Shown here in pieces: positions 9,219 to 30,524 of a stretch of 32,652 bases of DNA. Position 1 is the stretch's first letter. Every line of letters begins with the position of its first letter. The DNA lies in NCBI GenBank assembly GCA_003232915.1, contig QIKE01000055.1, forward strand, positions 1 to 32,652, written 5' to 3'. The notes under the pieces were generated by a model, which was given only the letters and a program-made list of their open reading frames with translations, searched no databases and was not told where the DNA came from. The stretch comes from Bacteroidota bacterium. GTDB lineage: Bacteria; Bacteroidota; Bacteroidia; Bacteroidales; F082. A program made the translations under genes and the position numbers.

Positions 9219-9590
9219 TGTTTAAATTTGTGGTTGTTATTAACAAAGTTATGCAACATCACAAAAATACAAAAAAGCCGGAACAAATCGAAAAGATTTC
9301 GCAAAACAACAAAGAAATTTGCGACAACATTGGAAAGTAATGGGCACTTTTGATGTAAAGTCTGTGCATAAAACCTTTGACGCATTAAAACGAAACATTT
9401 ATTTCCACTTTATCTGAAGAACACTTATAACGAACAAAAAAAAGAAAGTGAAAAATTCGAACTTAAACCGCAAGAGTTCAAAAAGCAATTCATAAAGCAG
9501 AGCGAAAGAAATACATCCGGATACAAACGTATAAAAGAAACCTACAAAACCAAAATAGAAATAGCTAATTCTATGATAAAGAGAATAATA
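9219..9590 (+). pseudogene. Unidentified decayed coding remnants
   Basis: Short stretches in different frames look coding but are broken. One runs MQHHKNTKKPEQIEKISQNN and stops; an overlapping frame gives RQHWKVMGTFDVKSVHKTFD and stops. After a further shift comes a charged stretch with KPQEFKKQFIKQSER and GYKRIKETY. The order suggests one ancestral gene with two or more frameshifts. I do not recognise the family. It lies between the LysR gene and an ISL3 transposase relic, so transfer-related cargo is plausible. Confidence 0.35.
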
Positions 9591-9599
9591 ATGTTAAAT

Positions 9600-10015
9600 A
9601 TTATTTTGAAGTGCCAGGAGAAGTACAAACTTAATCTAAAGAAGAAGAAATCCCTGTCTCTGGTTCCCTGATTTGATGAAATGAATCTTTGTATTTTGCT
9701 ATTAATACCTTCTGCCATTGCATTGGTTTCATCGTTTAAAAAGTAATTCATTATTTGCTTTTCGTTAGTTTCTATCAGGGTTTTAAAGTTAAGCATCATC
9801 TATTTCAGCATCTTCTACATCTTCATACCAATGATGAAATTGTTTGTCAATTTGCAGGAAGTGTTTCCCAATATTTTTCTGACTCATAAAATCTCTAAAT
9901 TGACAAGCCATGGCATATGCTTTTGCTATTTCGGGATAATGTTCAAATAACACTTTAGCTCGTTTAGCTTGTTTGTCGGTCCATTGAGATTTGAATTTGT
10001 ACAGTAAACACTAAA
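9600..10015 (-). pseudogene. ISL3-family transposase relic (C-terminal part, frameshifted)
   Basis: Two minus-strand segments are joined by a frameshift near 9785-9791. The upstream segment reads LLYKFKSQWTDKQAKRAKVL and ends HHWYEDVEDAEIDDA-stop. The downstream one reads YFLNDETNAMAEGINSKIQ and TRDRDFFFFRL, which matches the conserved ISL3 C-terminal pattern (..TNA.AE..N.KI......G.R....F..RL). The N-terminal two thirds, including most DDE residues, are missing, and no terminal repeats were found. It is dead. The 175 bp from 10015 to the MITE shows nothing recognisable. Confidence 0.75.
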
Positions 10016-10189
10016 TTTTCCACCTCAGGGACAGGCTACATAATCGTAGCATTATGGTAAAATTAATCGTATGTAATTGTATGTATGATAAATATGCTAT
10101 ATATTGTCTTGTTTTTTTATCTATTTATTGATTTTAATCATTAGATTATCTTTAAGTTATGAATTCCGAAAGTTCAGTAAATTATAGTT

Positions 10190-10359
10190 GAGTCCAGTCT
10201 AAAAAGGTTAACTAGGGTAAATAATGAAAATCGGTATTGACCCCTTCCCTAAAAAATGTACTGATCTTCAGCCACTTCCGATCTTCAGCCACTTCCCCTT
10301 TAGGGGATTGAGGGGTAAAAGTGGCTGAAACCAAATTGTAACCTTTTTAGACTGGACTC
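10190..10359. mobile_element. 170 bp MITE with perfect 21 bp terminal inverted repeats
   Basis: The left end GAGTCCAGTCTAAAAAGGTT(A) at 10190-10210 is perfectly inverted at 10339-10359. The element is flanked by ATAGTT at 10184-10189 and 10360-10365, a candidate 6 bp target-site duplication. Inside are two exact tandem copies of GATCTTCAGCCACTTCC (10263-10279, 10280-10296). TTCAGCCACTT (10284-10294) pairs with AAGTGGCTGAA (10319-10329) around CCCCTTTAGGGG. There is no ORF. Its ends resemble those of the degraded IS at 29455-30524, which suggests mobilisation in trans. Confidence 0.8.
10263..10329 (+). repeat. Tandem 17 bp repeat and hairpin inside the MITE
   Basis: GATCTTCAGCCACTTCC is present twice in tandem without a gap (10263-10279 and 10280-10296). 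The second copy forms the left arm of an 11 bp stem with AAGTGGCTGAA at 10319-10329, so the loop holds the CCCCTTTAGGGG palindrome. Either copy could pair with the right arm, giving two alternative hairpins. Confidence 0.8.
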
Positions 10360-10467
10360 ATAGTTTGAATAAATAGCACTTTGTATTTTCTTTGTTATTT
10401 ATTAACTAAATAATATTTTGTTGCAATAGAATTGTGTTAAGGTAGGAAATCCAAACATTTTTTTGTG

Positions 10468-10487: not shown

Positions 10488-11195
10488 ATGAAGAAAATAA
10501 TATTACTAATAGCGGTTTTATTTCTGGGAGGTCAATTTATTAAAGCACAAAACGAAAGGCGGTATATTGGTATAAATATCGGGCCTTCGTTTCCTTCTTC
10601 CGACTTTGCCAAAACGGATATTAACGATTCTACATCTGGCTATGCAAAAACGGGAATTGATTTGCGTATGGTATATGCATTTCGTTTGAGCCATAATTTA
10701 GGTTTTCAGTTTAATATCAATTATCATTCTAATGAAATTAACATTCAAAAATTAGAAGCATCTGCCATTCAAAAATTTAAAAATATGTCATTCAGCATCG
10801 AAAATCGCAATCCGTGGACGGGTGGGTGTGCATTTTTTGGCCCGTATTTCAGGTTTCCCATAACCCGTAATCTTTCGTGGGATGTTCGAGGTTCAATTGG
10901 TTTGTATGTTCTTTATTCGCCTGATTTCATCATCAGGGGAACCTCCGTTACGGGCGATAAAGCAGAATATTACCGTTATACCGATAAATCTTTTTCCTTT
11001 GGTTATACTATTGGTACCGGTTTAAAATACCGTATCAACAACTATTATATCCTGCTGTTTGCCGATTATAGTGGTACCGATACTCAATTTAACCATGTTA
11101 CGGGCACCGGCTGGGATAATACTCCTTACGATATTCCACTTAAACAAAGTATACGGAATTTAAGTGTTACCGTTGGATTTGCCTATATTTTGTAA
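10488..11195 (+). CDS. Outer-membrane beta-barrel protein, hypothetical
   Basis: 235 aa from the ATG. A clear signal peptide (MKKIILLIAVLFLGGQFIKA-Q) is followed by alternating strand-like segments rich in Tyr, Phe and Gly, such as RYIGINIGPSFP, LGFQFNINYHS, SFGYTIGTGLKYRI and LSVTVGFAYIL, ending in an aromatic/hydrophobic strand. This is the general pattern of the OmpA-like/PorT-like outer-membrane beta-barrel families of Bacteroidetes; the exact family and ligand are unknown. The track's start (TTG 10473) falls within the -7 element and is rejected. The glycosylase gene begins only 20 nt downstream, so the two are probably co-transcribed, although no functional link is evident. Confidence 0.75.
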   Translation: MKKIILLIAVLFLGGQFIKAQNERRYIGINIGPSFPSSDFAKTDINDSTSGYAKTGIDLRMVYAFRLSHNLGFQFNINYHSNEINIQKLEASAIQKFKNMSFSIENRNPWTGGCAFFGPYFRFPITRNLSWDVRGSIGLYVLYSPDFIIRGTSVTGDKAEYYRYTDKSFSFGYTIGTGLKYRINNYYILLFADYSGTDTQFNHVTGTGWDNTPYDIPLKQSIRNLSVTVGFAYIL

Positions 11196-15725: not shown

Positions 15726-16961
15726 TTAAGCTTTATTTGCTATTTTTTCCATTATATGATAACTGTCGCCGAGTTTACATAAAGCATTACAATTATCTCT
15801 CAATTCCGATGTCAAAATATACAATATCTCCAAATTGCTGTTACGAATGGCCGGCCTGTTTAATTGCAGTTTTACTTCTTGTTCTCTGTTGTTTGGGATT
15901 ATGATATAAAGTTTCGAATTAGAGGAGGGCAACGAAAATGACAAATCTGTCAACCGTAAAATACCTGAATAAATTGAGGTGCTTTTTTCGACTTCAAATG
16001 CACACACAACGTGATTCGTATCTTTTTCAAACCATACAATGTCAATTAGTTTTATTGTACTGAAAATTTCTTTAGGAACATCTATTTTAGGAAATTCTTT
16101 AATGCTGATAAAGGAAAATTTGTTTCCGTTATAGATTTTTGAACGGTCATTGGAAGCGGCTATTACATCATAATTCAGGGCATTACCAATTTTGAGTAAA
16201 TGATATTGCATTTCAGAATGTAACTCGCTTTCCTGTTTCTCACCAACAACCTTTTGACGCCTTTTCTGCAATTGTTTTAAAATCTTTTCCCTGTCCTTGT
16301 CTGTGAGGGTTGATTCTTGTCCAGCTAAGATATTTTTTGCTCCAATTTCAAAAAGCAAACCGCTAAAAGCACCTAAATCTGTTGAAAGGTACTGTCTGTA
16401 TTGCTGATTTTGTTGAATTATCACTTCACGCATCCTTAAATACTCCGACCAAGAACCTAACTTTACTTTGTCATTAAACAAGATGTTGAAACCTTTTACA
16501 ATTGCCGTATTACAAGGTGGAATAATTGTAGGGTGAAGAAAATACAAGATACTTGCAACCGCCGGGCCTAGTCCTTTTATTTTTTTCTCGTCTAATTTGA
16601 TGATTTCTGTCAAAAGGGTATTTTCATTTGACGTTTTCAGGCAATTTTCTAAAAACTGTCCGAAGTATCGCTTGTTGTCTTGGTTTTCGTAAATGTCTGG
16701 TATTCTGAGTTTTGGCTTCCAATAGAAGGGGTGGGATGCTCCTTCAAATACTTGCTTTTGCTCGGTAATGCAGGTCAAAACAAATTCGAGTGAACTCCCT
16801 TTGTAATCGTTCGGGAAGGTGTCTGCTTTTATGTCGTGTATGACCTGGATGACACCGCGTCTGATCGAACGAAAAGCTTTTAGTCGTTCTTCATTATTCA
16901 CGAACCATGTGTTATATACCAGATCTGAATTTTCTTTATATTGTTTAATTAAATTTTCCAT
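15726..16961 (-). CDS. Restriction-endonuclease-like protein (HhH-like N-part, PD-(D/E)XK-like C-part)
   Basis: 411 aa from ATG 16961; the track's 430 aa start is a TTG. Two regions are visible. At about residues 125-165, [22 protein letters not shown] resembles the helix-hairpin-helix region of DNA glycosylases. In the C-terminal half, [20 protein letters not shown] is followed by [23 protein letters not shown] and GILRLTDL. The spacing D...(V/A)F-E-V-E-K fits a PD-(D/E)XK nuclease core. I therefore call a type II-like restriction endonuclease, without a specificity. No methyltransferase is adjacent; upstream are only a RhuM pseudogene and a transposase relic. It is convergent with the porD-like gene, 60 nt apart. 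No secretion signal. Confidence 0.6.
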
Positions 16962-29454: not shown

Positions 29455-30524
29455 GAGTTCAGCCTAAAAAGGTATCCCATAAAGATAGCAAAAACTTCAT
29501 TCTAAAATATGTTAACAACATGGCGTCTACTAAGGTATAGATACACTTGGTGTTAAAAAGTTAACAACAAGCAGGCAAAGTAATTGATAATTAGTAGATC
29601 GGAAAACAAGAAATATGGTGTATTTATCTGAGAAACATAGTATTATATTGTATTTTTGCATTAGCAAAATCAAATAAGCTATAATCGCATATAATAATAA
29701 ACCGGCATTGATAACCTTTGAGGTGGAACTTGAAGAAAAGTATCGCAAAAGGTTAGAACAAACCAAAAGAAATTGGTTTTATAATTTGGTATTTTCCAAA
29801 TAAAAGAATCTGGTTTTAAAAAGCTTTATCCCAAGCGTAATTCACTGCCGGACACACCGATCAAGAGATTGATTACATCATTGATAATCTGAGATTTAAA
29901 AAGATTAAATTATTACGGATTAATTGAATCTTTAATGTTTGATTTGCACTTTAAAGTAGCTTTGGAACCGCAAAGGATGAAAGATAAGCCGTTTCCACGA
30001 TACACTTTTTAACTTTCAAAACCGGCTGTTAGACTACGAAAACCGGAAAGAATGTCCGTTAAGCGTTAACTGTCGGATATCTAAGAACTAAGGAATATTT
30101 TATTTTCAACACAAAGACTATATTAAGAGCAAACGCAATTGCAATATCAACAAAATACCTCAAGAGCGGTGGAGTCTCAAAACAAACGTAGAATCCGCAA
30201 TGCAAAAGTTTAAATCAGGAACCCTAGAGGGCAAGTTAAAAATAAGAGTGTTATTTGAAGCCATAAATGCTAATCTACGCCATCGGTATGTTCGTTAATT
30301 TCAGACGTAATTGCAGATATCTAATAGAGATTAAAACAGATAACAAGTTAAAAGTAGCTTTTTTTGCAAAAATTGCTTGTTTTTTGTATGTAATTATGAC
30401 TTTTATAATTTCAACGCGTCAACCAAAAACTCAAAATTCGACTTGTTTTAGCCTCAGCTCCTCCCGATATGTTTTTAAACGATTCTCAACGGTTTTGAAT
30501 TTTTGAGGTTTTTAGACCGGACTC
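29455..30524 (+). mobile_element. Degraded insertion sequence with MITE-like terminal repeats
   Basis: The left end GAGTTCAGCCTAAAAAGGT (29455-29473) is imperfectly inverted at 30506-30524 (reverse complement GAGTCCGGTCTAAAAACCT, 14 of 19 matching). Left end and MITE end agree at 17 of 19 positions. The roughly 1 kb interior carries plus-strand coding fragments broken by stops and frameshifts: VELEEKYRKRLEQTKRNWFY, FDLHFKVALEPQRMKDKPFP, NVESAMQKFKSGTLEGKLKI and FEAINANLRHRYVR with NFRRNCRYLIE. The last part resembles the C-terminal region of some Bacteroidetes DDE transposases. Family not assigned. No target duplication is visible. ORFs called here by the track are fragments of it. Confidence 0.65.

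Follow-up and report, generated by a model that had tools for sequence, protein, structure and literature searches.

A 170-bp MITE from a family with 6-bp target-site duplications and ends common to an IS1182-like insertion sequence in a Bacteroidota genome

A short element lying between two genes of an uncultured Bacteroidota-type genome is very probably a non-autonomous MITE that an IS1182-like insertion sequence mobilized through its transposase. It occupies exactly positions 10190-10359 (170 bp, plus strand) of the window, the whole 32,652-bp stretch of DNA analysed here. The element stays well below ~300 bp, has no transposase gene, carries terminal inverted repeats between two copies of a target sequence and has dispersed copies. 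Other insertions of its family can be compared with empty sites, and its ends are common to an autonomous IS that is intact in other genomes. No real open reading frame was found within the 170 bp, the longest comprising 40 aa.

The left terminal inverted repeat GAGTCCAGTCTAAAAAGGTTA (10190-10210, plus strand) and the right one detected by repeat search (10339-10359, minus strand) are 21 bp each and 100% complementary. Sequence and repeat detection thus confirm the earlier note, in which a MITE of 170 bp had been described, its 21-bp ends forming a perfect inverted pair. A 22nd arm pair reported by the tool, T/A, is part of the flanking ATAGTT copies, located at 10184-10189 and 10360-10365. 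The interior, read on the plus strand, contains two hairpins. Inner hairpin H1 (10230-10265) is degenerate in this genome, and relatives carry AAAATCAGT...ACTGATTTT instead. The second hairpin, H2, is preceded by a tandem pair of 100% identical 17-bp units, GATCTTCAGCCACTTCC at 10263-10279 and a second unit at 10280-10296, which serves as the H2 left arm as in all relatives; the pair contains one additional copy that is private to this element. The H2 core CCCCTTTAGGGGATTGAGGGG (10295-10315) occurs at nine places in the genome and is followed by the right arm AAGTGGCTGAA (10319-10329).

The genome containing the window (G000; 2.53 Mb in 162 contigs, assembly 86.6% complete) holds 45 stretches matching the MITE in a whole-assembly search, and the 18-bp end was found at 46 places with up to three mismatches, compared to one place for a backwards control. 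The absence of other copies, which the earlier note had named as grounds for refutation, does not apply, as many were found. The window element and its closest relatives form family A, with ~10-12 loci. Seven copies are complete with both sides present (C39, C6, C32, C70, C25, C13 and C28), and others are cut at contig ends (C43, C85, C11, C27 and C75/C121, the latter two having the same flank and possibly representing one locus). Since several contigs end inside copies, the MITE family helps to explain contig breaks in the assembly. A second group, family B, comprises nine copies with the same ends and another interior. Excluding indels, family-A copies are 93-100% identical. Perfect ends are present in C39 and C6 and are not general in the family: C32 has the same right end with a partly lost left end, and C70, C25, C13, C28, C11, C27, C75 and C121 carry the right end AGATCGGACTC, which is two bases off. 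All 20 copies examined fall outside open reading frames of at least 90 aa, and their orientations relative to neighbouring genes vary.

Across 55 elements from eight genomes (G000, G002, G006, G025, G038, G050, G072 and G099), an exact 6-bp duplication flanks 29, compared to a mean of 1.4 and a maximum of 8 identical flanks when these were mispaired in 5000 shuffles. The count includes one orthologous pair twice (G038_C12/G025_C47); the automated assignment of ends was incorrect for the two G099 elements and questionable for G050_C128, and this can only have lowered the count. Among other lengths, 5-bp and 8-bp duplications were absent and 7-bp duplications occurred three times. The targets follow the consensus ATNNAT (A 27/29, T 28/29, N, N, A 24/29, T 27/29), which ATAGTT matches at three of four fixed positions. 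The proposal that ATAGTT is a 6-bp target duplication is supported by these family-wide numbers. Together, the many copies, the 6-bp duplications and the family-level empty sites described below bear out the classification of the element as a MITE.

Another sequence had drawn attention since it follows both the MITE and the IS end at 30524, and either a preferred target or a longer element had been considered. TTTGAATAAA is separated from the MITE by 4 bp and directly adjoins the IS (0 bp), has two further exact occurrences in the window, and at one mismatch was found 23 times versus 18.6 expected, i.e., at chance level. None of the other aligned MITE copies has it alongside. With differing offsets, a chance-level count and no counterpart at other copies, both proposals were rejected and the coincidence is ascribed to chance.

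Empty sites were obtained from G038 and G025, sister species within the same genus. For six insertions in G038 the flanks were joined in silico with a single target copy left, and the resulting junctions were searched in G025 and G050. For five of the six sites the junction was matched in G025 at 90-96% identity. The G025 alignments contain a single target copy at L203, L205 and L208, and likewise with substitutions at L209; at L204 the element is absent and the junction has diverged. The sixth site, L207, gave a G025 match in two halves only, ending where MITE ends were found. At the family level, the sister-species empty sites therefore carry the target once and not twice. For the window copy, the nearest orthologue of the downstream gene (54% identity) is in G010, where no element lies upstream and the upstream region is not alignable.

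The link to an IS1182-like transposase comes from the ends, from an equal duplication length in relatives and from decayed copies in the same genome. The first 18 bases of the MITE left end are identical (18/18) to the left end GAGTCCAGTCTAAAAAGG of an intact IS in G287 (L140). In the window itself, a decayed and internally deleted IS1182-like element with such ends lies at 29455-30524 (plus strand), recognized by tblastn with intact transposases (E down to 1.9e-22). Its left end GAGTTCAGCCTAAAAAGG (29455-29472, plus strand) and right end GAGTCCGGTCTAAAAACC (30507-30524, minus strand) match the MITE end at two to three mismatches, among four matches in all versus 0.04 expected. The remnant joins transposase residues 5-123 (29693-30046) to residues 422-511 (30047-30304), so that ~298 residues are missing at the junction, and contains several stops; intact transposases from other genomes of the order align to it collinearly. 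A Pfam search of the decayed piece gave no match. Intact relatives of 549-605 aa were retrieved with a consensus of the surviving transposase pieces. Both intact transposases tested contain DUF772 and DDE_Tnp_1_6 above the Pfam cut-offs, including the 572-aa G279 protein, which aligns to IS1182 (NF033551) over residues 44-511. This model is the best NCBIfam match, at 131 bits versus a cut-off of 270, and as it stays below the cut-off we name the driver IS1182-like only. The intact G279 element has the left end GAGTCCAGTATAAAAAGG. The longer left ends read GAGTCCAGTCTAAAAAGGTAAT in G287 and GAGTCCAGTATAAAAAGGTAAT in G279, with right ends GAGTCCAGTTTAAAAAC. No clear 6-bp duplication surrounds the intact IS of either G287 or G279; such duplications were seen at more distantly related intact elements whose ends read GAGYCCACTCC, ACTAAT in G030 and ATCATT in G333. 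The relation to the IS end at 30524 that had been suspected from the window is thus backed by the end match, the decayed transposase and the intact elements elsewhere.

Driver and MITE were never seen intact together in one genome. A search with full-length transposases found no intact transposase in G000 (86.6% complete) nor in the MITE-bearing relatives G002, G006, G012, G025, G038, G050, G072 and G099. The scan of genome contigs returned two decayed copies only, and no relatives turned up in viral contigs, scanned with the transposase alignment, or in plasmids, scanned with the transposase consensus. The insertion had been called possibly recent; for the spread of the family this stands, as judged by the 93-100% identity of copies, whereas no live transposase was found that could support present activity. 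Two further mobile elements were noted. An ISL3-type transposase remnant (DDE_Tnp_ISL3, E 8.6e-8) lies to the left of the MITE at 9542-9799 (minus strand). In G012, several contigs (C13, C19, C136, C154 and others) stop ~110 bp into a repeat whose ends read GAGTCCACTCTAAAAAGG; this is probably an IS present in multiple copies and with ends of the same type.

We infer which transposase acted and that it used a cut-and-paste route, an IS1182-like enzyme being the likely driver. The transposase would bind the GAGTCC(A/G)GTCTAAAAAGG ends, excise the MITE and insert it at an A+T-rich target with the consensus ATNNAT, after which gap repair would duplicate 6 bp of the target. The 17-bp duplication would represent a private slippage or template-switch event in the window copy, and the family hairpins have been rearranged repeatedly by tandem duplications, deletions, tip insertions and flips, as would be expected when palindromic DNA is replicated. 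The MITE has no demonstrated host function and is a formerly mobile passenger, whose copies persist between genes because insertions are tolerated there.

In a reading as palindromic repeats of the REP/BIME type, the conserved CCCCTTTAGGGG hairpins would form the true repeated unit and owe their movement to a REP-associated tyrosine transposase, the terminal inverted repeats being incidental. This would account for the similarity of H1 and H2 to inverted versions of a related motif and for CCCCTTTAGGGG-type sequences in other families, which also occur outside these ends, e.g., in G096. In the window's own genome, however, all nine occurrences of the core lie inside copies of this MITE, and the borders marked by duplications and empty sites are the GAGTCC ends rather than the hairpin. 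For this genome the REP/BIME reading is mostly refuted, and overall we consider it exceedingly improbable. Much the same low probability applies to an internal-deletion derivative of an IS1182-like element that decayed in place and never moved as a MITE. The ends in common with the IS would fit such a remnant, as would a 171-bp IS-derived miniature at C108:7106-7276, which consists of just both IS ends joined. Yet at least ten near-identical copies are inserted at separate loci, most of them flanked by a 6-bp duplication of their own, and dispersed copies and empty sites refute decay in place for the family.

The internal hairpins raise the question of a cis-regulatory RNA switch, in which two mutually exclusive hairpins would act upstream of the outer-membrane beta-barrel (OMP_b-brl) gene at 10488. 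The MITE lies ~113-130 bp upstream of this gene on the same strand. The 17-bp tandem unit, either copy of which pairs with the same right arm, had been described correctly according to sequence and folding: arms 10267-10277 and 10284-10294 can each pair with AAGTGGCTGAA. The two plus strand folds are nearly equal in energy (-72.2 versus -71.1 kcal/mol, 1.1 apart) with mean pair probabilities of 0.61 versus 0.35, whereas on the minus strand one fold dominates (0.90 versus 0.001). The folding surpasses that of shuffled sequences by a wide margin (z = -9.0 and -7.3), mostly because of the inverted ends. The 'switchable hairpin' of the earlier note is thus physically possible; however, the duplication is private to the window copy, seven others spanning the junction (C6, C32, C70, C25, C28, C11 and C27) having one unit, and the two-way hairpin is therefore not a family feature. 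Copies adjoin genes in varied orientations, and the nearest orthologue of the beta-barrel gene lacks such an element upstream. Neither a terminator-like site nor an Rfam match was found in the MITE and, with no open reading frame above 40 aa, a regulatory role is unsupported beyond the position upstream of the beta-barrel gene. Covariation was also considered as evidence for RNA function. Paired states made up 96.7% of cells and six pairs had double changes, above shuffles and slides; it was discarded as such evidence since both the transposase and gene conversion maintain inverted ends, and counts of this kind are inflated among related copies. We regard the RNA switch as very improbable. Elsewhere in the window, a 411-aa open reading frame at 15726-16961 (minus strand) gave no Pfam match at E 0.001.

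For a mobile MITE, the hairpins are informative in another way, as the sister-species sites preserve the kinds of mutation that palindromic mobile DNA undergoes in nature, namely in-place inversion, tip insertions and tandem duplications. Such duplications, and hairpin deletions, are what one would expect from replication slippage or from template switching at palindromes. Other private tandem duplications are present in C81 (CAATATTCGC), C108b (a 15-bp unit) and C113, and hairpin deletions in C13, C25 and C28. At one orthologous site, L211 (G038 C26:20989-21101) and L216 (G025 C52:96519-96651), the two species carry the MITE with its interior in opposite orientations, inverted in place. Flank identity is 95.6% and 98.4%, and the interior is identical at 76/77 positions only when inverted, while left and right end-specific bases stay put; judged by the aligned bases, the exchange must have occurred within GGTCTAAAAAGG, which is common to both ends. 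At L204 (G038:C25:10783-10951) the H2 core is flipped between its arms relative to all other aligned copies. A palindromic tip insert of 16 bp, TCCCGATGTCAATATC, distinguishes the orthologous, equally oriented copies L164 and L172 (G038_C12 and G025_C47), and a second, 20-bp insert of the CCTGCCTGCCGGTAGGCAGG type is present or absent among other copies. The 16-bp tip insert was also considered as an independent mobile palindrome; a search with CCCGATATTGACATCGGG gave eight hits, all in G038 and G025 and seven of them at known MITE coordinates, and the idea was rejected. One full-interior flip and one core flip could suggest an invertible element, whose interior and hairpin cores would flip and offer either strand's hairpin to transcripts of neighbouring genes. 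We consider this very improbable. Both flips are single events and fit template switching or recombination at inverted repeats. If such flips were frequent within a population, the element would amount to a small reversible switch and not to a scar left by palindrome replication.

Bacterial MITEs that have a parental IS form a well-documented kind (PMC9769881, PMC4596501, PMC3733652), to which the present MITE adds a new family. Like MITECca01 of Cardinium, which derives from ISCca4 of the IS982 family (PMC9769881), it is short, lacks a gene, has ends in common with an IS, and occurs in many copies together with decayed intermediates in the same genome. It differs in its parental family, in having no intact parent found in the same genome, and in its 6-bp ATNNAT duplications and large internal hairpins. 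The BrickBuilt MITE of Porphyromonas gingivalis, with ends resembling ISPg1/ISPg9, likewise has a Bacteroidota host and internal tandem direct repeats (PMC4596501); its 23-nt tandem repeats are family-wide, whereas the 17-bp duplication is found in one copy only. The driver resembles the IS1182 family in its DUF772 and DDE_Tnp_1_6 transposase, a size of ~1.6-2 kb and terminal inverted repeats, and differs in its ends GAGTCC(A/G)GT(C/T)TAAAAA, the 6-bp duplication and the below-cut-off NCBIfam score. Within that family, ISPse1 (1653 bp, ends 16/16) has a listed repeat value of 4 (PMC3281130), and IS1272 replaces an inverted repeat with no duplication (PMC5678879), both contrasting with the 6-bp ATNNAT target. 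No description of the family appears among the listed titles and abstracts of papers on MITEs with IS1182 or Bacteroidetes, a scope excluding subscription journals and ISfinder. A group of uncultured Bacteroidota-type genomes thereby gains a MITE family, linked to an IS1182-like transposase and a clear 6-bp ATNNAT target.

A large related MITE population was also observed in G072, a MAG from another family of the order, which contains 69 GAGTSCRGTCTAAAAAGC-type ends. The elements examined there are 71-157 bp long, many with 6-bp duplications.
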